DNA of 64,000 nt from Bacteroidota bacterium (GTDB lineage: Bacteria; Bacteroidota; Bacteroidia; Bacteroidales; F082): NCBI GenBank assembly GCA_016845175.1, contig JAERTD010000071.1:1-64000 (forward strand). The letters run 5' to 3'. Position 1 is the first letter of the stretch. Each line of letters starts with the position of its first letter. Shown here one piece after another: positions 1,294 to 14,564 of this stretch. The position numbers were made by a program, and so were the translations under genes. The notes under the pieces were generated by a model. It was not told where the DNA came from and ran no database searches. It saw only the letters and a program-made list of their open reading frames with translations.

Positions 1294-1668
1294 ATGTATA
1301 GTATTAGAATCCAATACCTTGCCATCTTTGGAAGCATTGTGCTACTCATCTTTATTTTATTTCTGATCAGGCGGCAGCGACTGAAAGAAGAGTACTCGAT
1401 ACTATGGCTCATTTTTGGCGTCATTTTTTTAGGACTCTCCATATGGAGGGATGGGGTTGATTTCATTGCCGAATTGGTTGGCATTGCTTATCCACCTGCG
1501 GCACTATTCCTGATTTTACTCATGGCCCTGTTCGTGATCATGATTGAATTCTCCACCATCATTTCACGCATCTCTAATATCAATACCCATCTGGCTCAGG
1601 ACGTGGCACTTCTGAAAAGTGAAATCGAGGAATTGAAGAAGGAACTTGAAAGTACAAAGATTTCTTAG
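1294..1668 (+). CDS. DUF2304 family small membrane protein
   Basis: 124 residues. Hydrophobic helices lie at about residues 7-25, 35-50 and 68-88, with a charged coiled-coil tail at about 100-120 (repeated ELKKELE-like heptads). This matches the DUF2304 family, which often sits directly after a GT2 gene, as here. The role is unknown; a likely guess is a membrane partner or anchor for the preceding glycosyltransferase. The stop codon overlaps the stop of the convergent GT4 gene by four bases. Confidence 0.75.
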   Translation: MYSIRIQYLAIFGSIVLLIFILFLIRRQRLKEEYSILWLIFGVIFLGLSIWRDGVDFIAELVGIAYPPAALFLILLMALFVIMIEFSTIISRISNINTHLAQDVALLKSEIEELKKELESTKIS

Positions 1669-2759
1669 CCCTTTAACAAATCTTCATATAGTTTTACGTA
1701 TTTATCCAGACTGTCGCTCAGCTGAAACCGCTTTATTTCTTCTGTAGTCCAATCTCCCTTGTATGCTTGTTTCAATGCCTCAACAAGGGCTTCGGTTGTA
1801 TAGTTGTTCATCGCTATAAAGCGTCCTGAAACAACCTCTTTCAGGGCTCCCCTTTGTGAAGAAATAATGGGAACACCAAGGGCTACTGATTCTGCTGCAG
1901 CAAAGCAAAAGCCTTCGCTGATGGATGGGATGACCACACAGCTGGAGCTTTTAAGCTCAAACTGTAACTCTCTATCCGAAAGCTGGTGAAGCAATTCGAT
2001 TCGGTCATTCAAACCATGGCTATTGATGGAATGCTGAACATAACTAAAAATAGAAGTGGGTTGTTTTCCGATGATTAACTTCATCTGTGAATCCGGCACC
2101 TTATTTAGGAATTCCATCGATGCCTGCATCAACAAATCAATGCCTTTAGAAGGACCTAAGCGCCCGAAGAAAGCAAACGTAAACAGCTCATTATCATCAG
2201 CTTTACTTTCATCTATTTTGCTATATTCCAGTCCATTATAGATCAGGCTAATCCTATTTTTTTCAACTCCTGAATCGCATAAACACTGCTCACTATATTT
2301 CGAAACAGCTACTATTCGATCAAAAGCCAGACGAAGTATCATTTTTTCGTACATATAGTACAAACGACTATTTAACCAACCAATAAAAGGCAGTTGGAAC
2401 CATAATGTATCCCAGACTTCATGAAAAGTGATACTCACTTTCTTTCTCAGCCATTTGGCTCCCAGATAAGCCGGTAAGGCAGCATTGAAGGAGGTGGTAT
2501 GGATCAAATCATAGTTTCGTCCGTAGCGAATAACCCATGGCAAACTAAAAAAAGTAAAGAAAAAACGGTTCCAGAACCTCAGACGTCTGACCACCACACC
2601 ATTGATTACCTCCTGTTTTGGCAGATCCCGTTTATAGCGATTGGTCAGAACCAAGACTTCATGGCCCTGATCAGCCAAATACTCAGTCAGCGCTTTAAAA
2701 AGTCTCTCAACCCCGCCAATATTGGGATGGTAGTATTCCAGAACGAAGAGTATTTTCAT
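1665..2759 (-). CDS. Family 4 (GT-B) glycosyltransferase
   Basis: 364 residues, normal for GT4. The N-terminal half opens with a beta strand and a glycine-rich loop (YHPNIGGVERL) typical of acceptor-side GT-B domains. The C-terminal half has FAFFGRLGPSKGIDLL and the E-x7-E donor-site motif SEGFCFAAAES near residues 280-292. It is the most distal gene of the minus-strand polysaccharide set, 14 bases after the preceding GT4. It probably adds one sugar to a lipid-linked surface glycan in the cytoplasm; donor and linkage are unknown. Confidence 0.88.
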   Translation of the reverse strand: MKILFVLEYYHPNIGGVERLFKALTEYLADQGHEVLVLTNRYKRDLPKQEVINGVVVRRLRFWNRFFFTFFSLPWVIRYGRNYDLIHTTSFNAALPAYLGAKWLRKKVSITFHEVWDTLWFQLPFIGWLNSRLYYMYEKMILRLAFDRIVAVSKYSEQCLCDSGVEKNRISLIYNGLEYSKIDESKADDNELFTFAFFGRLGPSKGIDLLMQASMEFLNKVPDSQMKLIIGKQPTSIFSYVQHSINSHGLNDRIELLHQLSDRELQFELKSSSCVVIPSISEGFCFAAAESVALGVPIISSQRGALKEVVSGRFIAMNNYTTEALVEALKQAYKGDWTTEEIKRFQLSDSLDKYVKLYEDLLKG

Positions 2760-2773
2760 AGGTATGGCAATCG

Positions 2774-3880
2774 TCAGCGATCAAATTTTTCCTCAAGCAA
2801 GTTAATAAATTCCCTGGTGAAGCGCTCCCAGCTAAATTGATTGGCCTGTGCCAATGCTTTTTCCTTCAACTGAGTACGGCAATTATTGTCTTCGTTTATC
2901 AATTGCATTTGTTGTGACAATTCATTTACAGAATTTGGATTGACATAAAGAACAGCATCACCGCCAACTTCAGGGATGCTCGAAGTATTGGAGGTAATCA
3001 CTGCCGCACCACAGGCCATAGCCTCAAGTACAGGCAAACCAAATCCTTCATACAAAGAAGGGTAAATAAAAGCTGTAGCCATTGAATAAAATACTGGCAG
3101 ATCTTCTGCAGGCACATAACCAGGAAGTACAATGTCCTTTCGAAAGGGACTGGCCTGCAACTGTCGATAGAATGATTTTGATTTCCAGCCTTTTGCACCA
3201 ACAATTACTAACTGGTGGGGACTTGAGGTTTTCGTTTTAAAATCCTCGTATGCACTTAAAAGTTTGTTGAGATTTTTCCTTGGCTCAATGGTTCCAACAA
3301 ACAAGAAGAAACTTTCACCAATACCATACTTAAAAAGAACTCCTGGATCAATCTTTGGCTTAAAAGAATCATCCTTTCCTAAATGAACAAATTCAATTTT
3401 CCCTTGGGCCTGAGGGGAGTATTCAAGTACATCGTTTAATGTATTCTTCGAGTTACATACTATCAGATCAGCTCTTTTCAGAATTCCAGGTAAAAACAAG
3501 CGTTGTAACAGCTGGCTGTGAAAGCGGTGAAGTCCAGGAAATTTTATGGGTGTCAGATCATGAATAACCGTAACTCTTTTGATATGTTTTGGTAGGTTAA
3601 AGGGTCCAAAATGAGCTGGTTCGATGACCAAATCAGGGTTCCATTTCTTTATTGCTTGAGGAAGCTTGATAAATATCCTGAGAGGATCCTTATTTAGTAT
3701 ACCTATTGGATTCTTAACTTCCTCCTGATGTACTGACAAACTACTATCAACCTTAAATCGAAAGAAACAAAAATCATGAGTTTTACTTACTTTCGGAAGC
3801 TTTTCCAAAAGGTTTCTGGTGAATTCATAGATGCCGGCAGATTGTTTATCCAAAGGATCGGCAATGATGGCTATGCGCAT
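2774..3880 (-). CDS. Family 4 glycosyltransferase, mannosyltransferase-like
   Basis: 368 residues with the GT-B layout: [17 protein letters not shown] begins the donor domain and [15 protein letters not shown] carries the E-x7-E motif. The sequence style ([19 protein letters not shown]) is that of the WbdA/mannosyltransferase branch often found in O-antigen loci, but sugar specificity cannot be set. It starts 3 bases after the stop of the preceding GT2 gene, so co-translation is likely. Confidence 0.87.
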
Positions 3881-3883
3881 GAT

Positions 3884-4945
3884 TTAATACTTTTCAAAAT
3901 AGGATTTTTCGCCTTTGATGATAAATGTATAAAAGTTTTGGATATCGCGTTTGAGGAAGAATTCCTGCTTTTTAAGTAGTTTCCACCAGGGAATTCTCCG
4001 AAGTCTTTTTGATTCCCTTCTCGCCTGCATCACTGTCTTCCAGTCTCGGAACAAGATGTTAGAAAGCGCATGGTATTGCACTTTCAGGTATTTGGGGCGC
4101 CAGAAAACGATATCTATCACAGTAATTATCAAAAACCTTAACAACCAGGGAATGAAGTGTATGGCCATGACCTGCCAATGAACTAGTTTCAGATAAGTAT
4201 AGAAAATGTTGGTTTGGATCCTGAGTGTATAGTTGTAATTAAAAACTTTTTTGATGGATTGACCCATTTTATGATAGACAACGGCATTGGGTTCATATTG
4301 ACATCGATAACCGGCGACAAAGGCTCTTAAACCCAATTCAGCATCTTCATAACCTGTTTCAAAATACTCATCAAACAGACCAATATCTTTTAGCATGGCT
4401 GAAGAATATAGGGCCGCCCCTGCACAGGCTCCAATATTGTCATTCGGATCATTGTAGTTTTTAATATCATCACCATGACCAACAGGGATGATCTCTCCTG
4501 AAGATAGCATCTTATGGCCGGCATTATCCATCAGGTTTCTATCCCAATAATTAACCATTTTACAACTTAAAATGTCTGGCTTTTGCTCTTGAATTTGGTT
4601 TTCCAGGATTTGTGGTAAGTTCTGCTCAACAATTGTATCATTATTCAAAAGAAAAACGTATTTCTCCCTTTCTAATAGCAGGAGAAGTTTTTTGTTATGG
4701 GCTTTTGTGAACCCAAAATTTTGATCATTGTAAAGAATTTCAATATCCTGATCATCAGAAAAACTATTTTTCAATGACTCAGTGTTTTTACTATTGGAGC
4801 CATTATCGATTAGAATCAAAAATAAATTTGTGCTGGATGCTTGTTTTATTGATCTAATACATTCAATGGTATCAGAAGAATTGTTCCAATTTAATATAAT
4901 CAATACCAGAGTGTGTTTCTTTTCCTCCACTTTATTAGATAACAA
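3884..4945 (-). CDS. Family 2 glycosyltransferase, rhamnosyltransferase-like
   Basis: 353 residues. ILNWNNSSDTIECI and DNGSNSKNTE mark the nucleotide-binding part of GT2, and LLNNDT takes the place of a DxD motif, as in WbbL-like rhamnosyltransferases. GYEDAELGLRAF gives the ED acceptor-side motif. The C-terminal 100 residues are basic and hydrophobic and may contact the membrane. The frame opens at TTG (4945); GTG at 4930 is the other choice, and no ATG is near, so the start is uncertain. Confidence 0.83.
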   Translation of the reverse strand: MLSNKVEEKKHTLVLIILNWNNSSDTIECIRSIKQASSTNLFLILIDNGSNSKNTESLKNSFSDDQDIEILYNDQNFGFTKAHNKKLLLLLEREKYVFLLNNDTIVEQNLPQILENQIQEQKPDILSCKMVNYWDRNLMDNAGHKMLSSGEIIPVGHGDDIKNYNDPNDNIGACAGAALYSSAMLKDIGLFDEYFETGYEDAELGLRAFVAGYRCQYEPNAVVYHKMGQSIKKVFNYNYTLRIQTNIFYTYLKLVHWQVMAIHFIPWLLRFLIITVIDIVFWRPKYLKVQYHALSNILFRDWKTVMQARRESKRLRRIPWWKLLKKQEFFLKRDIQNFYTFIIKGEKSYFEKY

Positions 4946-5023: not shown

Positions 5024-5779
5024 CTAAAGGTTATTATATGGGGCATGCGCCTCAAGAATAATGTTTGCCTCTGTCATAAATCTTGAGTTTTTAATTCTTT
5101 TTCCTGATATTCCTTTATATGCGTCATTTAGGCAAAAGGTGGTTAAACAGTCGATTGAATCTCCACCACCCCAATCAATGATTTCCTGACAAATAACTTT
5201 GCCTCCATGATCCAAGATAAAATCATAGATATCTTTTGATGAAGTGGTTTGATCACGCATATGCTTGTACCCACCATGGTCTTCCTGAACACCAGTTTGT
5301 TTTAAAACTTCTCCAAAATTCGAATGGTGTATAAAGCAAACTCCATCTGGCTTAAGAAGAGAAAGTATTTGTTGGATGTAATTCTGAAGGACTTCCTGAC
5401 TGACATGAACAAGAGAGTCAAATGAAAAAACAAAATCAAACTTGTTAACCGAAACAGCCGCCAATGACACACCATCATTTCTAAAAAAAGTACACTTCTT
5501 TGCTTTGAAGTTATCTTTACAGTATTGAATGCACTCTTCAGATAGGTCAACCCCACTAAAGATGTTTGCGGTGTATTGCATTAGAAACTTAGTCCATCTT
5601 CCATAACCACATGCAATCTCGAGAACATTATCACATCCAATAAAGCGATGTATTCGTGGATAAATTGAACTAAACCATTGTGCTTCTGAACTACCCCAAA
5701 CCTGAGACCATTCTTCACCTTTCAATTTCCAGTTGTATTCTTTATCCCATGTATTTTTATTCCATTCTAAACTTGGCAT
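5024..5779 (-). CDS. Class I SAM-dependent methyltransferase
   Basis: 251 residues. Motif I is VLEIACGYGRW near residues 50-60, followed by an acidic end of strand 2 (GVDLSEECI) and a motif at KFDFVFSFDSLVHV. These are class I methyltransferase hallmarks. It sits between the giant glycosyltransferase and three smaller ones, so a sugar or glycan O-methylation, perhaps at a chain end, is the simplest inference. Small-molecule or lipid substrates cannot be excluded. Confidence 0.82.
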   Translation of the reverse strand: MPSLEWNKNTWDKEYNWKLKGEEWSQVWGSSEAQWFSSIYPRIHRFIGCDNVLEIACGYGRWTKFLMQYTANIFSGVDLSEECIQYCKDNFKAKKCTFFRNDGVSLAAVSVNKFDFVFSFDSLVHVSQEVLQNYIQQILSLLKPDGVCFIHHSNFGEVLKQTGVQEDHGGYKHMRDQTTSSKDIYDFILDHGGKVICQEIIDWGGGDSIDCLTTFCLNDAYKGISGKRIKNSRFMTEANIILEAHAPYNNL

Positions 5780-5828: not shown

Positions 5829-8800
5829 TTATAACTGTTTTCTCCGTGGATTACCGTATAATTTTAAGTACTTGTCAAGACAATCTTTCATAGAGAATTG
5901 CTTAAACAAGTATTTGCAATTATTCACATGCTCTTTGTACACCTTACTATCATTCAAATATTTTAGAATGCTGGTACTTAAATCATTAATGTTAACTCCT
6001 TTTTCAGATGTTTCGATGATTATTCCTGCAGACTTATTATTTTGTGTTAACATTGATTTGATTTCCCCTATGTCACTAGCAATTGTTGGTTTCTGAGCAG
6101 CCATATACTCAATAACAGAGGTAGGAAGTGATTCAGATATAAAATAACTAGGAAGAAGGCCGACATCGAAAAGCTGAATCCATTCTAGTGGATTTGTTGA
6201 AAAACCGGTGAAATGAACATAATCAAGACTGTATTTATTACTTAATTCATGAGAGAAATCACTTTCACCAACCAAAATCAAATGGACATTCCTTTTTTTA
6301 TTGCCTTCATTAATTCGCTGTACAGCTTTTATCGATTCAATCCACCCTTTTTCAGGTATTGCCCTTGATACGATCCCTACAATAAAAGCATCGTCACTTA
6401 TTCCGAGCTCTTTTCTGCGTCTAGCACGTGGGAAAACAGGAGAATATCCATTATAAATCTGAGTAAGTTTTTTTCTTTCCACCTGATAATCATCAAAAAT
6501 TTTAATGTTTTTATCAGTTAAATAAACGAAATGGTCTACTTTACTTATCAGATCAGGAAATATCTTAGTAAAAGAAAGGTCACTTTCAGGAGAAGAAAGA
6601 AGGAACTCATAACACCCGTGCATTGTTACAACCCAGTTTACCTTCAAATTAGAAATAACCTGATAAACAAATTTATCTGCCCACCATATATGTGAATGTA
6701 CTACACCTATTTGATGTTTACTAATATAGTCTGAAAACCCTTGCTTAGGATCAACCCAATCATCCTTATTCACTACTGTAATTTTGGAGGATATCAGATC
6801 CCTTATTTTAGTATTTGTTGGATGCCTTCCAACATTTAGTAAGTGAACTATTACACCTTTTTGAGTAAGTGAATTTGCAAGCCTAATGGCAACAGTTTGT
6901 CCACCGCCGGTTCCAAGATCACTTAACACTACTAGTACACGTAAATCAGTTTGCTGAGAACTGGATCTTGCTTTAATAAGTTTATTGTCATAGAACTTGT
7001 AAAACTCACCATCAATATTTGTTTGAATTAGTCTCTTCCATTCACTTTTAGCATGCCCAAGCATTTTTACACCGAGGCCGAACTCAGTGATAAAATTGTT
7101 AAGTATATATTGGTGTACCTCCCATGTTTCTCCTAGAAATTCTTTCGAACCCTCATGTTTCATAATTACGCTTTCACTATGTCTGCGATGGTAATTCAAA
7201 GATTGTTTTCTATAAGCAATCTTTCCACCTCTTGCAGCCATCAAATAGAATAACCAGTCACCTGCTGATTTCAATTTTCGAATATCTTTTATCTCATCAG
7301 CCTCAACACGTCTAAACAATACAGCACTTACATTTGGTATAGTATTCATTATACCTAAACCCTCATTAACTTCATTTTGGATAGGATTTACGTAATCCTT
7401 GTCCCATTTTCCTGGGGAAAGCTTATTGAAATAATCATGTTTTCCTAATTCCTCATCACTCTCTCCAACAATTGTTGACTGGCAATAAGCGATATTAACC
7501 TCAAAGTCTATAAAACTAGGTAGCATTTTCTCTAGAAACAGTGGGTTAGAATAATCATCAGCTTCGGCAATCCAAATAATATCACCACTAGAAAGCTTTA
7601 AGCCTTTAATCCATTGAGAAAAGACAGAGCCGCTGTTTTTCTTGTTCGAAAGCACACGTACAAAAGGATGATTTAGATATTTCTCAACTAACTTCATGCT
7701 ATTATCGCTTGAAGCATCATCAAGTATGATTAATTCAAAATCAAGAAATGTTTGATTAAAAATTGTCGTTAAGCGTTTATCCAAATATCTTTCATAATTA
7801 TAATTTGGTAGAATAATTGATACCAGGGGAGGTATTTTGCCAATACGCCTACATACATCTAAAATATAGGGTGCCGTAACATCCGTTGAGTGGTTTAAAT
7901 GCACCTTTCGTTGTGCTTGCGCTCCTAGTTTCTTTCTTAGTTCTTTATCCTTCCATAACAATTGAATCTTTTTCGCCATACCTGATACATCCTCATAAGG
8001 CACAACAAACCCTGCATCAGCTTCCACAAAATCTGGCATGCCCCCTGCATCTTTGAAACATAAAACCGGCAGCTGGCAAGAGGCTGCTTCTAAACAAACT
8101 AATGGGTAGGGATCTTCCCTTGAGGGTAAAATAAATACATCTCCAGTTGAATAATAGTCAAAAACATTATTCTTCCTCCCAAGAAAAGTCACATAGTTAG
8201 ACAAACCATAGGCCTCGATCTTCTTAAGTTGTTGTTTCCAGGTACCATATTTTTCATGACTATAGCCCTCATCAAGTTCTCCAAGCCAATAAAAATGAAA
8301 GTCTTCAACCCCCAGTTTCAAAAGAGATTTTGCTATTTCGATGAATAAATCCGCCCCTTTTCTCCAAAAAAGGCCAAAACCACTACCAAATACAATGAGC
8401 TTATCTGCTTCAATATCTAACGCCTCCCGCAGCTTTTGTTTCTCATGATTTAATTGCGTTTTCTCATGTGTTATGTCAATAAACTCATAGATTGTATTTA
8501 TTTTATCGGATGTAACATTATAGTTGTCAACTAGATTATTGGCTACTGCATTTGAACAGGCGATGAAATGATCAGTGTGTTGTATAATATCCTCGATATA
8601 ATCCGAAGCATATACTTCAATACTGTTTTGTAGTTCATGAACATGGGTAATTATTGGCACATCCATTTCCTTTAAAGAATCTATCATCTTCCCCGATCCA
8701 ACTGAATTTAAATAGATTAGGTCGGGTTTTCCTTCGCAAAAATCGAATAGTCTCTCGGTTAAATGCTTAGTGCTTATTTGACTATCTTTAAGTGTATCAA

Positions 8801-11800
8801 AAATAATTGTATCTCCATATTCTTGAAATCTATTTACCATTTCACCTCCAGATCCACAAATAATCTTAATGGTTATTTGACTATGCTCCTTTATCCATTT
8901 AAGTAAATTGTTCAGTATTAATTGTGCTCCTGAAAAGTTAGCATCGTGGGAGATGAATAAAATTCTTGTTGAACCGACTTTTCTACTCGAGAGAGATTTT
9001 AAGGCACGGGTTGTTGCATTCAGATAGGCATATCCATATTTACGATCGGGCTCAAGATAAGCACCCTCAGCCCATTCGTTCCAAGCATTTATAAACACAA
9101 ATCTCTCATCCTTAGTGAAGGATTTCTGAGTATACTGACATAAATTCTCTAACCATTTTTGATATCTATGGGGTGTTGAACCATAGAAAATTGTTGATTC
9201 TTTTCTCCTTGCGGTATTATCCCAATCAGGAAATATTCCTCTAAACAACTTATATGGTGGTTCTGAGCGTTCTTTTGAACCCGAAACAACTTGATCATAA
9301 TCATAAACCAATCCCTCAAATTGATTCGTAGAATAATTCAATTCCTCTTTGTGTGGTTTCGTTCGTGCATGATGAGGAGGGAACTCAACCGCTGCATCAC
9401 AATTCCATTCCGTTGGTGATTTAACCCTCTCGAAACCAGTCTCTACAATCACCAGGTATAAGCTATTTAAACCAGATTTTACAGCACATTCTTGCCATCT
9501 TTTTACAGTTTTCTTGAAATTTGGAAACAAACTAGGCCTGTAGATGAGTAATAATGGTCTTCCTTTGATTTTGATATATCGAGAATCATGCAAAGCTGGT
9601 TCGATATACTTAAAAAAGGCTATATCATCCTGTGGATTATGATTTTGCTCCAAAAGGACTTCGCCTTTTTCTATTCCACCATCAAATTTAGATGTCCATG
9701 GTTCATTAGCCCAATGAAGACAGAATGGAAAGTCAATATCCTTATTTTCTAACATATGATCTACTGGAATCCTCATAATTGGTTTCCCATCAAAGAAATA
9801 ATGATGAAAACAGAACCCATAGATTCCATGTCTCTTAGCTAATTCTACTTGTCTTTTAAGCACCTCTTTTAACCTGAGGTCATAGAAACCTAATTCACCG
9901 GGTAAACGTGGTTGGTAATGACCTTGGAATACTGGTAGAGCTTTTGTTGTATTCGTCCATTCCGTAAATCCTTTTCCCCAAAATTTGTCATTTTCTTCAA
10001 AAGGATGAAATTGTGGAAGAAAAAAAGCAATTGGTTTCACATCCAGTTCAGGCAACGCAAATAGTTCCTCATCCTCATACTCAGGTTGTAGCGTGATTTT
10101 TTCATAAGGGTTTAGTATGCCCTTATGAGTAGAGTTCCCTGCGATTTGATCTGCTTCCTTCACCAGAGAGATTTCTCGCCCCTCTAGGATCCCTTGAGTG
10201 ATGTAATGAATTAAAGGGTTTATTTTTGCATTCATTACATCGGGGTTTGATGACAAATACGCATCTGTGCAGAACACTCTGCTAGGGTCTCTTCCTTCTT
10301 TCCACCCTTGATGCAAATAATGTTCTACAGGTGAAATATCAGCACTTAAAACATCAGGGTTAAACTCTACATAATAATTCTCATCATAGAAATTACTAAC
10401 CCTCAACAATTCAAGATTTGACTCATCAGATGTGTATTTTGTAGTGTTAGAATCGTTTGAGAGCTCCTCATTTTTACCTACTGGCTGGTCTTTTAATAAG
10501 TTTTTGAAATTTTCAATAATAGTTCTAGGATGCTCGTGCTTCAATGCTAAACCCAAGGTCTTTATATTCCTACGATTCAAATGTTTTAACAATTTGAAAG
10601 GTTTTTGAATTCCAAGAGCTAGTAGACGCAACCAAAACCACCTTCTATTCTCAACATGTGTATTTATACTAAACAAATTGTAAACAGTTCTGAAAGGAAA
10701 GGTAAAAATCCAGCCTAATCTAAAACTAAGAGAACTTTTTAGCTCATGTATATATCTCCTGTTATCTTCCAAATAACCTTGGTATTCAGCTAATTTTTTT
10801 GATTGTGCTTCGTTGTTCTTATGCAGATATTTAATTCGGTTTGTTTGCTCCTCGAGTTGATTCATTCTAAAATTTGCGTCTTCAATTAAAACCTCAGATT
10901 TTTTTAGAAGGCCCTCATATTGATCAAATATTTTTTCACTTTGGTTTTTTAATTTATCATTCTCTTTTGATTTGTCCACTATTTCAATAGACTTTTCTTC
11001 CAATCTACTCAAATATTGTTGTGCTAGTTCATCCTTCTCCTTCAATATCTGTTTGTTAAGGGTTTGAGCTGTCTTCAATTTAGTTATTAAAATCTCATTT
11101 GCCCTTAACTCATTGAATAGGACTTTAACTTCATTCTCCTTTAGACTTACTAAGCCATCCGCTTGTTTAAGTTCCTCAGATTTAATTTCTAATCGTTCTG
11201 TAAGGATAGATACTTCTTTTTCAAGCTTGTGTATGCTTTTAAATCTATGTTCAAGAATATCTTTCAATTCATTTTTATCTTGCTTCAGCTGATTCAATAC
11301 TCTCAGTTGAGAATCTAATTCCTTTTGAAGACTTACATTAGTCAAATCTTTTTCTTCTAAAGAAACTTTTAGATCGTTTAGAACTACATCTTTTTCGTTA
11401 AGATTGAGGTCTTTCTCATTAAGCTTTGCATTTAGGTTATTAATTTGGTTCTGGTTTTGTTCTATTATTTGTTTATACTCATCCTCTACTTTTGTAAAAG
11501 ATAGAATTGTCTTATTCTGATTACTCAGTAACTTACTGATACTCTCATAATTTTTTTCATTATTTGATACTTTTAATAGAATTTCTTTATTTATGGAAGT
11601 TGTTTCTATATTAATGTCTTCTTTTAGAAGTAATTGGTGTGTGCTATTCGCTCCAATTGCCAAGTAATCTAGTTTAAGTTCCAACAATGCAGAGTTAAAT
11701 TGACTTTCAACTTCAAAATAAAACTGTGGGTCTTCGTTATCAAAATAGTACAATTGATTATTCTCATGAAAAGCATTTGAAGATACATTTAATGCCGCCC

Positions 11801-12704
11801 ATACATTCCCAATTTTCAATCGAGCTAAACTGATCTTAATTGCACACTTTTCATCACAAGGGTCAATCCTTAGCCCAACTATATTCCCTAAGTTACTTAA
11901 CTCAAATTGTAGAAATTTACTAGCTCCATGAATTAGTTCAATCACCCGAACAATTTTATTCTTTTCAGTAAATCCACTACCATTATTGTAATAAAGGGAA
12001 ACAACGGGTTTCTGATTGCTATTCTCATTATCTCTATTATCTTGGTTGGCACCTTTTGATAAAGTCAAATCGAGTTCCTCAAGAATATCAGGGTGTTTAT
12101 CTGATACCTGTCTACTCCGAAAGCTAACTCTGTCTTTTTTTTGCACCCAAGCACCAGGATTGAATTTTTTAAAATCCTCATAATTAACTTCTATATAATT
12201 CTTAATAAGGCGCTTCTGATAGGTTTCCCAAAAGTTATATTTTATTTCAGAAATTGATTTTGAAAAATCAACAACCGGATATACGTCAGGTCTTTCTGAA
12301 ACTTTCTTAATTAATTTAAACTTCTCGTAGTCACGTTGTGAATAACTCAGGTTTCTATTAAAATAGCATTGTTTATTCCAGGCTATTCTTTCTTCTGATT
12401 TCTGAATATCAATTAAATCACGCCTACTAAATACCACTATTGTTGATTCTGAGACCACTTCTTCAAGGTAAATAGACTGAGCTGGACATTGAACTACTTT
12501 GTTGTCAGAAGTTTCAAGTATAGCTATTAATTCATCCTTATTATCATAGCTTACCACTTCTTCTGGTATCATTTTGTAACCCAGGTCATCAGCCAGGCAT
12601 TTACTAATAAAAGTTGTGCCACTTCTTTGTGGGCCAGAAACTATAACATTAGTAAATTTTTCAAGCCTTTTTAAAATCTTAGTGTATTGTACACTCCTTT
12701 CCAT
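5829..12704 (-). CDS. Giant multidomain polysaccharide assembly protein (sulfotransferase-like, coiled coil, WbsX, GT4, GT2, GT4)
   Basis: About 2291 residues in one frame. In the numbering of the longest frame (start 12713, TTG): residues 20-200 P-loop domain with SGPQRSGTT, like sulfotransferases; 235-370 beta-rich segment; 405-660 heptad-rich coiled coil; 775-860 two copies of a YY/YL...NPDV...EGR repeat; 893-1240 WbsX/GH99-like domain (FFLPQFHPFEEND, WNEWAEG); 1248-1610 GT4 with SREDPYPLVCLEA; 1630-1850 GT2 with ILPNYNYERYL and AEADD; 1922-2290 GT4 with ISESLPTSVIEYMA. The ATG at 12704 is preferred. Likely role: sequential sugar transfer plus chain modification during O-antigen or capsule synthesis. 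No frameshift is visible. Strongly AT-rich. Confidence 0.85.
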   Translation of the reverse strand: MERSVQYTKILKRLEKFTNVIVSGPQRSGTTFISKCLADDLGYKMIPEEVVSYDNKDELIAILETSDNKVVQCPAQSIYLEEVVSESTIVVFSRRDLIDIQKSEERIAWNKQCYFNRNLSYSQRDYEKFKLIKKVSERPDVYPVVDFSKSISEIKYNFWETYQKRLIKNYIEVNYEDFKKFNPGAWVQKKDRVSFRSRQVSDKHPDILEELDLTLSKGANQDNRDNENSNQKPVVSLYYNNGSGFTEKNKIVRVIELIHGASKFLQFELSNLGNIVGLRIDPCDEKCAIKISLARLKIGNVWAALNVSSNAFHENNQLYYFDNEDPQFYFEVESQFNSALLELKLDYLAIGANSTHQLLLKEDINIETTSINKEILLKVSNNEKNYESISKLLSNQNKTILSFTKVEDEYKQIIEQNQNQINNLNAKLNEKDLNLNEKDVVLNDLKVSLEEKDLTNVSLQKELDSQLRVLNQLKQDKNELKDILEHRFKSIHKLEKEVSILTERLEIKSEELKQADGLVSLKENEVKVLFNELRANEILITKLKTAQTLNKQILKEKDELAQQYLSRLEEKSIEIVDKSKENDKLKNQSEKIFDQYEGLLKKSEVLIEDANFRMNQLEEQTNRIKYLHKNNEAQSKKLAEYQGYLEDNRRYIHELKSSLSFRLGWIFTFPFRTVYNLFSINTHVENRRWFWLRLLALGIQKPFKLLKHLNRRNIKTLGLALKHEHPRTIIENFKNLLKDQPVGKNEELSNDSNTTKYTSDESNLELLRVSNFYDENYYVEFNPDVLSADISPVEHYLHQGWKEGRDPSRVFCTDAYLSSNPDVMNAKINPLIHYITQGILEGREISLVKEADQIAGNSTHKGILNPYEKITLQPEYEDEELFALPELDVKPIAFFLPQFHPFEENDKFWGKGFTEWTNTTKALPVFQGHYQPRLPGELGFYDLRLKEVLKRQVELAKRHGIYGFCFHHYFFDGKPIMRIPVDHMLENKDIDFPFCLHWANEPWTSKFDGGIEKGEVLLEQNHNPQDDIAFFKYIEPALHDSRYIKIKGRPLLLIYRPSLFPNFKKTVKRWQECAVKSGLNSLYLVIVETGFERVKSPTEWNCDAAVEFPPHHARTKPHKEELNYSTNQFEGLVYDYDQVVSGSKERSEPPYKLFRGIFPDWDNTARRKESTIFYGSTPHRYQKWLENLCQYTQKSFTKDERFVFINAWNEWAEGAYLEPDRKYGYAYLNATTRALKSLSSRKVGSTRILFISHDANFSGAQLILNNLLKWIKEHSQITIKIICGSGGEMVNRFQEYGDTIIFDTLKDSQISTKHLTERLFDFCEGKPDLIYLNSVGSGKMIDSLKEMDVPIITHVHELQNSIEVYASDYIEDIIQHTDHFIACSNAVANNLVDNYNVTSDKINTIYEFIDITHEKTQLNHEKQKLREALDIEADKLIVFGSGFGLFWRKGADLFIEIAKSLLKLGVEDFHFYWLGELDEGYSHEKYGTWKQQLKKIEAYGLSNYVTFLGRKNNVFDYYSTGDVFILPSREDPYPLVCLEAASCQLPVLCFKDAGGMPDFVEADAGFVVPYEDVSGMAKKIQLLWKDKELRKKLGAQAQRKVHLNHSTDVTAPYILDVCRRIGKIPPLVSIILPNYNYERYLDKRLTTIFNQTFLDFELIILDDASSDNSMKLVEKYLNHPFVRVLSNKKNSGSVFSQWIKGLKLSSGDIIWIAEADDYSNPLFLEKMLPSFIDFEVNIAYCQSTIVGESDEELGKHDYFNKLSPGKWDKDYVNPIQNEVNEGLGIMNTIPNVSAVLFRRVEADEIKDIRKLKSAGDWLFYLMAARGGKIAYRKQSLNYHRRHSESVIMKHEGSKEFLGETWEVHQYILNNFITEFGLGVKMLGHAKSEWKRLIQTNIDGEFYKFYDNKLIKARSSSQQTDLRVLVVLSDLGTGGGQTVAIRLANSLTQKGVIVHLLNVGRHPTNTKIRDLISSKITVVNKDDWVDPKQGFSDYISKHQIGVVHSHIWWADKFVYQVISNLKVNWVVTMHGCYEFLLSSPESDLSFTKIFPDLISKVDHFVYLTDKNIKIFDDYQVERKKLTQIYNGYSPVFPRARRRKELGISDDAFIVGIVSRAIPEKGWIESIKAVQRINEGNKKRNVHLILVGESDFSHELSNKYSLDYVHFTGFSTNPLEWIQLFDVGLLPSYFISESLPTSVIEYMAAQKPTIASDIGEIKSMLTQNNKSAGIIIETSEKGVNINDLSTSILKYLNDSKVYKEHVNNCKYLFKQFSMKDCLDKYLKLYGNPRRKQL

Positions 12705-12910: not shown

Positions 12911-13657
12911 TTATTTAGCATCGTAGCTTTCAATATATCTATCAATTACATGATTGGCTTCCCCCAACATCCGACAATTACCATTTTCTAACCACATCAC
13001 ACGATCACAATTCTGTCTAATAATATCAATTGAATGGCTAACATTTATAATCGTCTTACCTTCAATTACAGACTTGTTAAATACTTTGGCCGACTTCTGT
13101 TGGAAAGAAGCATCCCCAACACCTCCAAAGAACTCGTCCAGTAGGTAAATATCTGCTTCAGTATTGATGGCTATTGCGAAAGCCAAACGGGAAACCATGC
13201 CACTTGAATAAAACTTGAGTTTGGTATCTACAAAATCATGCAATTCTGAAAAATCCAGTATCTTCTCAAACCGCTCCCCAATCTGTCGGAAACTCATGCC
13301 CATTAATGATCCGTTTATGTAAATATTTTGACGGGCTGAGAACTCAAAATTAAAACCTGTGCCAAGTGCCAATCGAACACATTTCCCTTCAATTTTAATA
13401 ACCCCACCTTTATCAGGCTTGTAAACTCCGGCAATTATCTTCAACAGTGTAGACTTTCCACTACCATTCATGCCGATGATGCCTACTTGTTCACCCTTTG
13501 CTACCTCTAAGTTAATGTTGTTTAATCCATGTATGACTTTTACATTGTCTCTTCTAAACATATTAACCAGGGCTCCCCTAATGGTATAATTCTTATTTTC
13601 AACAACCTTAAAAGTTTTTGAAACATCTGTAATTTTGATGACATTTTGTGTATCCAT
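12911..13657 (-). CDS. Polysaccharide ABC exporter, ATP-binding protein (Wzt-like)
   Basis: 248 residues. Walker A is GMNGSGKST, the signature is a degenerate YSSGMVSRLAFA, and Walker B is DIYLLDEFF with the following GGVGDASFQ of the O-antigen/teichoic-acid exporter ATPases. It lacks the extra C-terminal carbohydrate-binding domain (about 150-180 residues) found in Wzt proteins that recognise a chain cap, so recognition must lie elsewhere or be absent. ATG at 13657 is chosen over a TTG at 13666. It follows the permease gene by 12 bases. It should power export of an undecaprenyl-linked glycan across the inner membrane. Confidence 0.9.
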   Translation of the reverse strand: MDTQNVIKITDVSKTFKVVENKNYTIRGALVNMFRRDNVKVIHGLNNINLEVAKGEQVGIIGMNGSGKSTLLKIIAGVYKPDKGGVIKIEGKCVRLALGTGFNFEFSARQNIYINGSLMGMSFRQIGERFEKILDFSELHDFVDTKLKFYSSGMVSRLAFAIAINTEADIYLLDEFFGGVGDASFQQKSAKVFNKSVIEGKTIINVSHSIDIIRQNCDRVMWLENGNCRMLGEANHVIDRYIESYDAK

Positions 13658-13669
13658 AATCGCCAATGT

Positions 13670-14467
13670 CTAGATTATTTCAACCGCTTTTGGGGAGAAT
13701 CGTTTAAAGAGTAGCAAGGCAATAATCAACAAAACTATAGCGGTTATATAGTTTAAAAGAAATAAGTTCCAATCTGGAGGATTGCTATATAATAAAGTTT
13801 CCCTAATATTTATAAAAATACCAGTAAGAGGATTAATATACAATAGAATAGGCAATTTTTCGACTATAACATCCTTACTATAAAAAATCGGTGACCCCCA
13901 AAATAGCAGTAATAACATCATATCCCATAAGTGATTAATATCCCTGAAGAATATATACAAGACACTCAGAATTAGTTGAACCGCAAGAATTATCAAAATG
14001 AAATTTAAGAGAATAAGTGGTGCAAATAATGCGTTGATGTTATAAATTACATCAAAAAAGAAACTCAATAATATATAGACAAACAAATTAAAACCAAAGG
14101 CAATTGATGCACTTATCATGGCTCCATAGAACAGATCAAGCTTATTGATGTTTATATTCTCTAATATTGCTTTATACCTCCCCATGAGGCTCAGACCTTT
14201 AGTGGTTGCCTCTGAGAAGAACATCATTAAAATCAATCCTGAAAATACGTAGAGTGCAAAGTTTGGTATCTCTACAGCAAAAATAACAGAGAAAGCAATG
14301 TAATAAACCACCAACTGAAAAAAGGGATTAATCAGTGCCCAGACGATGCCCAAACGGGTGCCATAATAGCGTTCAATAAAATCGGTTTTCGCCAGTACCC
14401 AGATCCGTTCCAGTTTGTTATTTTCCGGCAGTCGTTTGAGTAAAGGGCCTAGTAATTGATTGATCAT
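13670..14467 (-). CDS. Polysaccharide ABC exporter, ABC-2 type permease (Wzm-like)
   Basis: 265 residues from the ATG at 14467; a TTG start at 14506 would add 13 unlikely residues. About six membrane helices follow an N-terminal amphipathic region (VLAKTDFIERYYGTRLGIVWALINP), the standard pattern of Wzm/KpsM/TagG permeases. A motif near SPIFYSKD precedes the last helices. It pairs with the ATPase 12 bases downstream to form the exporter. It is the first gene of the minus-strand set and diverges from the EF-G-like gene. Confidence 0.9.
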   Translation of the reverse strand: MINQLLGPLLKRLPENNKLERIWVLAKTDFIERYYGTRLGIVWALINPFFQLVVYYIAFSVIFAVEIPNFALYVFSGLILMMFFSEATTKGLSLMGRYKAILENININKLDLFYGAMISASIAFGFNLFVYILLSFFFDVIYNINALFAPLILLNFILIILAVQLILSVLYIFFRDINHLWDMMLLLLFWGSPIFYSKDVIVEKLPILLYINPLTGIFINIRETLLYSNPPDWNLFLLNYITAIVLLIIALLLFKRFSPKAVEII

Positions 14468-14564
14468 CCGGCGGGCATTTTTGCATGGTAAATATAAAAA
14501 AATCAAGCAATATCTATTCTTAGTCTAAATAACTAGGGCTCTTTTTATTATTCGTTTATTTTGC

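Follow-up and report, generated by a model that had tools for sequence, protein, structure and literature searches.

The groups added by terminators known to control the length of a glycan are methyl, methyl-phosphate and Kdo. Among ABC-exported O antigens, methyl, pyruvyl and Kdo have been described as end groups (PMC11231755). In the closest described systems, WbbB of Klebsiella pneumoniae O12 and ORF6 of K. pneumoniae O7, GTs close to the membrane make the chains, and a terminator held at the distal end of a coiled coil caps them (PMC11231755); a single protein combining terminator, ruler and polymerase is therefore already known, and an 'all-in-one' protein is not new in itself. WbbB has a β-Kdo GT (GT99) as terminator and two polymerase GTs, and its Wzt carries a CBM. 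ORF6 joins a cap enzyme (a methyltransferase-kinase giving a methyl-phosphate cap) to an Ig-like CBM, a coiled coil and two GT2 modules; the ribofuranosyltransferase is a protein of its own. In E. coli O9a two proteins are involved: WbdD has a methyltransferase-kinase cap domain, a coiled coil and a membrane region, and recruits the polymerase WbdA at its base. The catalytic sites of WbdD lie about 200 Å from the polymerase, and changes in its coiled coil alter chain length (PMC5082667). In Klebsiella O1/O2, a CBM-less transporter exports capped and uncapped chains, and length follows from transporter-polymerase stoichiometry; the terminating pyruvyltransferase of O1 only diversifies the chains, its cap exerting no control over length (PMC11231755).

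The window, a 64,000-nt stretch of Bacteroidota DNA, encodes a protein of similar layout. Its features and neighbours are given below; L numbers denote related loci, and A2 is a 21-row alignment of the window head family.

5829–12704, minus strand: whole multidomain protein, 2291 aa, ORF from the ATG at 12704
12075–12704, minus strand: P-loop sulfotransferase-like head, residues 1–210 (viral homologues at E 1e-30 to 1e-11, Sulfotransfer_3 matches in A2, AlphaFold2 model, fold matches)
12612–12635, minus strand: GPQRSGTT, residues 24–31, PAPS-type loop without the Walker lysine (G24 to T30 invariant in A2)
12396–12422, minus strand: R-x7-S, residues 95–103, with the spacing of a sulfotransferase 3′-phosphate site (R95 and S103 invariant in A2)
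11589–12011, minus strand: β-type domain, possible carbohydrate-binding module, residues 232–372 (homologues in L088, L041, L038, L040, L094 and, weakly, L056)
10764–11501, minus strand: coiled coil, residues 402–647 (246 residues), about 36 nm if continuous (COILS-type calculation)
10470–10763, minus strand: hydrophobic/basic segment SFRLGWIFTFPFR, possible membrane contact, residues 648–745 (from the sequence)
10125–10403, minus strand: two NPDV repeats, residues 768–860 (motif copies at 782 and 820)
9012–10031, minus strand: WbsX (GH99-like), residues 892–1231 (PF14307, E 3e-129)
7845–8972, minus strand: GT4, residues 1245–1620 (PF00534/PF13439)
7005–7829, minus strand: GT2, residues 1626–1900, Pfam match at 1629–1758 (PF00535, E 2e-23)
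5832–6947, minus strand: second GT4, residues 1920–2291, matches from about 1946 (PF13579 and two-stretch GT4 matches; NCBIfam GT4 models at 2078–2284)
13670–14506, minus strand: Wzm-type permease (PF01061, E 1e-6; NF050109 galactan permease, E 4e-13)
12911–13666, minus strand: Wzt-type ATPase, 251 aa (ABC_tran alone above the Pfam cut-off; Wzt_C absent)
5024–5779, minus strand: class I methyltransferase, encoded after the giant gene in the run (PF13649, E 5e-17)
1665–4945, minus strand: two GT4 genes and one GT2 gene of the same cluster (domain matches)

The giant gene is a single frame from its ATG to a stop at 5829–5831, with no internal stops. It is third in a minus-strand run of Wzm, Wzt, giant protein, methyltransferase, GT2, GT4 and GT4; two plus-strand genes, GT2 and then DUF2304 (548–1668), adjoin the cluster end. 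From N- to C-terminus the order is P-loop domain, β-type domain, coiled coil, possible membrane segment, two NPDV copies, WbsX, GT4, GT2 and GT4. The first-pass annotation had read an uninterrupted frame of about 2290 codons, its strand unstated, with a two-copy NPDV repeat, WbsX, GT4, GT2 and a second GT4 in this order, beside Wzm/Wzt genes of which the Wzt lacked a C-terminal cap-recognition domain. These claims were borne out, the polymerase order by Pfam matches.

The β-rich segment noted earlier proved to be a recurring domain, with six diverse homologous rows and 11 invariant columns in its alignment; its profile gave no matches to PDB sequences. A joint alignment of head and β domain was misaligned and was dropped. 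The heptad coiled coil, put at about 250 residues in the first reading, is called at 402–647 by the COILS-type calculation (p ≥ 0.5, coil table entered by hand): the fraction over threshold is 0.84, which 0 of 200 same-composition shuffles reach (mean 0.37). A motif related to the hydrophobic/basic segment, S-W-[KR]-[IL]-T-x-P-[LI]-R, is found in some relatives, in their N-terminal portion.

Set against the known single-protein type, the window has a cap-type head and GTs in one chain, a coiled coil between them, and Wzm/Wzt in the locus (12911–14506). The protein shares with WbbB a (here putative) N-terminal terminator, a coiled-coil ruler (likewise putative), C-terminal GT modules and ABC export, and with ORF6 the overall order. 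Unlike WbbB, it carries a sulfotransferase-type head, a β domain, and WbsX plus three GTs, and its Wzt has no CBM. The earlier comparison with WbdD was right; WbbB and ORF6 are closer, since their cap enzyme, coiled coil and polymerase share one protein (PMC11231755), as in the window. The WbdD ruler is about 200 Å long, the 246-residue window coil about 360 Å if continuous. O3/O5/O12-type CBM-dependent export involves a Wzt with a C-terminal CBM; the window Wzt has none, so a cap cannot serve as export signal in the O3/O5/O12 manner. Klebsiella O1/O2a (WbbM, pyruvyltransferase) likewise has a CBM-less Wzt, and there an end-modifying enzyme is possible without export control; the part of the O1/O2a account drawn on here describes no comparable head-coiled coil-polymerase fusion. 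What sets the window protein apart is its combination of a divergent, virus-related sulfotransferase-like head, a β domain, a long coil and four polymerase-side modules with a Wzt that does not read caps.

The reading we favour, with confidence a little short of even, is a glycan polymerase of the terminator-ruler type, complete in one protein and headed by a sulfotransferase. At the membrane, WbsX, GT4, GT2 and GT4 would build the chain, and the coiled coil would keep the head about 36 nm off. Once the chain's free end could reach the head, the head would pass sulfate to it from PAPS, which would block or slow further growth. Wzm/Wzt would export the chain without cap reading, because the window Wzt lacks a domain for it. 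A ruler function is a plausible prediction for the coiled coil; head activity, sulfate position and length control are what we infer here. By analogy, the order shared with WbbB and O7 ORF6 (PMC11231755) speaks for this reading. So do the sulfotransferase motifs of the head family and a P-loop model that matches TPST1, and, among relatives, sulfotransferase heads, heads swapped in one slot, heads and coiled coils together, split forms, varied coil lengths and an E. coli plasmid locus (L113) with cysD, cysN and cysC. Against it stand the CBM-less Wzt, an APS kinase not found, a head below Pfam thresholds, and kinase folds that match the head equally.

The NPDV-WbsX-GT4-GT2 fusion is widespread, occurring on plasmids and in 80 loci from many phyla. 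Among 84 WbsX proteins examined, the heads are sulfotransferases (14), methyltransferases (8) and a pyruvyltransferase (1). Coiled coils occur in 21 of 23 headed but 13 of 61 headless proteins (p 5e-9), and in 8 of the 28 headless proteins with more than 250 residues in front (p 1e-5 against the headed set); these p values are optimistic, because sampling went through WbsX and the loci share descent, and the coil table behind the calls was entered by hand. Such co-occurrence is as expected if head and rod form one unit. Among head-bearing relatives the coiled coil ranges in length between 0 or 28 and 370 aa. Sulfotransferase-headed fusions include L088, L113, L105, L093, L102 and L039; L088, for example, has the order sulfotransferase-β-coiled coil-NPDV-WbsX-GT2-GT4. 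In split forms, a separate gene with a coiled coil lies just upstream of the WbsX-GT protein and encodes a sulfotransferase (L041, L099), a methyltransferase (L094, L057) or a Capsule_synth-domain protein (L038, L040). The β domain stands behind differing heads in the window and in the six loci listed with it above. The head-coiled coil-polymerase order thus recurs elsewhere, as the first-pass annotation had suggested checking, and the comparative data favour a head-rod-polymerase logic in which different heads occupy one slot and the coiled coil accompanies them. The association of heads with a long Wzt (13:3 against 10:9, p 0.15) is not significant; fused methyltransferase heads have a long Wzt in 6 of 6 cases. 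L056 (7802–13066), whose neighbouring Wzt is 246 aa long, has a pyruvyltransferase head, a weak β-domain match, a coiled coil and WbsX-GT4-GT2. In a Methanoperedenaceae archaeon (L035, 7475–14317), an N-terminal sulfatase is fused to WbsX-GT4-GT2-GT4, the C-terminal order of the window.

A serious competitor, possible though on balance doubtful, is that the head sulfates the glycan, at the end or within the chain, without setting length. The transporter:polymerase ratio would then set length, and the coiled coil would oligomerize or dock cluster enzymes. The CBM-less window Wzt is consistent with this, as are the Klebsiella O1 pyruvyltransferase, which merely diversifies chains handled by a transporter without a CBM (PMC11231755), and the short Wzt adjacent to the pyruvyltransferase head of L056 and to the sulfotransferase head of L106. 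However, head, 246-aa coiled coil and polymerase in one chain make a ruler layout, and across relatives coiled coils accompany heads; both argue for a terminator with a ruler rather than decoration.

For the head, the first-pass annotation had proposed a P-loop sulfotransferase-like domain: the P-loop fold (by AlphaFold2) and the family placement (by viral homologues) held up, whereas a single-sequence match did not, the window head alone falling below every Pfam sulfotransferase threshold (Sulfotransfer_3, E 0.21). Its nSTAND3 match (E 0.006) was set aside as a P-loop match of no weight. A profile built from the relatives' Sulfotransfer_3 heads fails to recognise it (E about 1), so it is not simply of the Sulfotransfer_3 family. 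No convincing relatives of the N-terminal domain turned up in 100 genomes of the family or order, in 395 genomes of the phylum, in phages, in plasmids or in a first scan of viral sequences, and residues 1–893 as query found nothing in a first scan of genome contigs. Relatives were found by scanning viral contigs with a DNA pattern, GPQRSGT plus a glycine-aromatic pair further on. This gave 27 stretches, among them 20 distinct proteins related to the window head (phmmer E between 5e-31 and 4e-11, searched against the pattern-derived stretches only, a small set). GPQRSGT, R95, S103 and W109 are invariant in the 21 sequences of A2, and 13 of the 21 rows match Sulfotransfer_3 (E ≤ 0.01, best 1.7e-11). 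In sulfotransferases, the residues holding the PAPS 3′-phosphate are spaced as R-x7-S, and from established family knowledge we take R95 and S103 to form this site. By its viral homologues the head belongs, at the sequence level, to a sulfotransferase-type family with a correspondingly predicted activity, and motifs and family membership together point to a probable sulfotransferase. The viral proteins (L164–L190) form an unnamed family of single-domain sulfotransferase-like proteins with GPQRSGT, R-x7-S and R-I-x-W; members tested against PHROGs gave no match better than about 0.006. In at least one viral locus (L168) the head relative sits, by eye from the sequences, among glycosyltransferase-like genes.

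A kinase-like head, capping by P-loop phosphotransfer, is an unlikely alternative, as is a remnant that has lost its activity. The fold check suggested earlier gave, with A2 as input to AlphaFold2, a P-loop kinase/sulfotransferase fold (pLDDT 83, pTM 0.81; pLDDT 30 without an alignment). In VIA-align, gluconate kinases (Z 9.8) and the tyrosylprotein sulfotransferase TPST1 (Z 9.2 over 150 residues) are tied; Foldseek ranks shikimate kinases first, and the best PDB-sequence match of the A2 profile is a cytidylate kinase, over the P-loop only. Fold alone is indecisive, because kinases and sulfotransferases match the model equally. Kinase caps are already known (WbdD, O7 ORF6), and the missing APS kinase also suits a kinase head. 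Against it, the Walker lysine, a kinase feature absent from the sulfotransferase-type loop GPQRSGT, is lacking in 21 of 21 sequences, R-x7-S is invariant, and beside the 13 Sulfotransfer_3 matches, P-loop Pfam matches in A2 at E 0.01 are limited to AAA_18 and nSTAND3, with one member each.

That the frame at 5829–12704 is an assembly chimera or chance fusion is very improbable: its N-terminal 460 residues have no relative in the 100 family and order genomes and the assembly is a draft of 114 contigs, but a similar kind of domain order occurs in L088, from an independent Bacteroidales MAG, the frame is single and stop-free, and composition changes rather little from one end of the gene to the other (GC3 0.25–0.34). 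GC3 is lower than in other genes measured (0.30–0.43), a hint of foreign origin.

A second doubt about termination by a sulfotransferase head concerns the donor. APS kinase was not found in the 91.7%-complete assembly, which leaves the sulfate donor of the head unproven in the source genome; 34 of 36 same-family genomes have an APS kinase match, some weak, and the source assembly contains other sulfotransferase genes.

Donor supply is linked to a sulfotransferase-headed polymerase in L113, where both are encoded in one locus. L113 (4543–20299) lies on the conjugative IncF plasmid pKTa005_1 of E. coli (NZ_CP147085.1) and comprises dTDP-rhamnose genes, Wzm, Wzt with Wzt_C (E 1e-21), a Sulfotransfer_2-headed polymerase (head match 1.5e-23), cysD, cysN and cysC. 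Such a locus was seen in only 1 of 5426 E. coli genomes. Like the window, L113 has a sulfotransferase head, heptad-length repeats, NPDV, WbsX, GT2 and GT4, with Wzm/Wzt beside them. Unlike the window, it has Wzt_C, PAPS genes in the locus, a Sulfotransfer_2 head and a tandem-repeat spacer that the COILS-type calculation does not call as coiled coil. This spacer holds 13.8 copies of a 42-bp repeat (91% matches), each 14 aa or two heptads, so its length could change in phase. With its in-phase 14-residue repeats, L113 would offer a naturally occurring ruler open to stepwise shortening.

Our literature search found no sulfotransferase described as terminator of an ABC-exported glycan, an absence that is weak evidence. 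We tentatively propose, as a possibility we would not yet call probable, that sulfate may be an unrecognised terminating group of ABC-exported bacterial polysaccharides and that sulfotransferase-headed ruler-polymerases may be widespread. In the same proposal, the window ruler would work without a cap-reading transporter, with termination apart from export recognition, and its head would belong to a virus-associated sulfotransferase-like family. If true, such a class would add a charged, widely distributed cap to the known terminators, would suggest that many uncharacterised surface glycans carry sulfated ends and would show the ruler head to be a free slot. Where a head stands beside a short Wzt, chain termination and export recognition, usually studied together, would come apart, and this separation would offer a clean test of a ruler acting without a cap-reading transporter.
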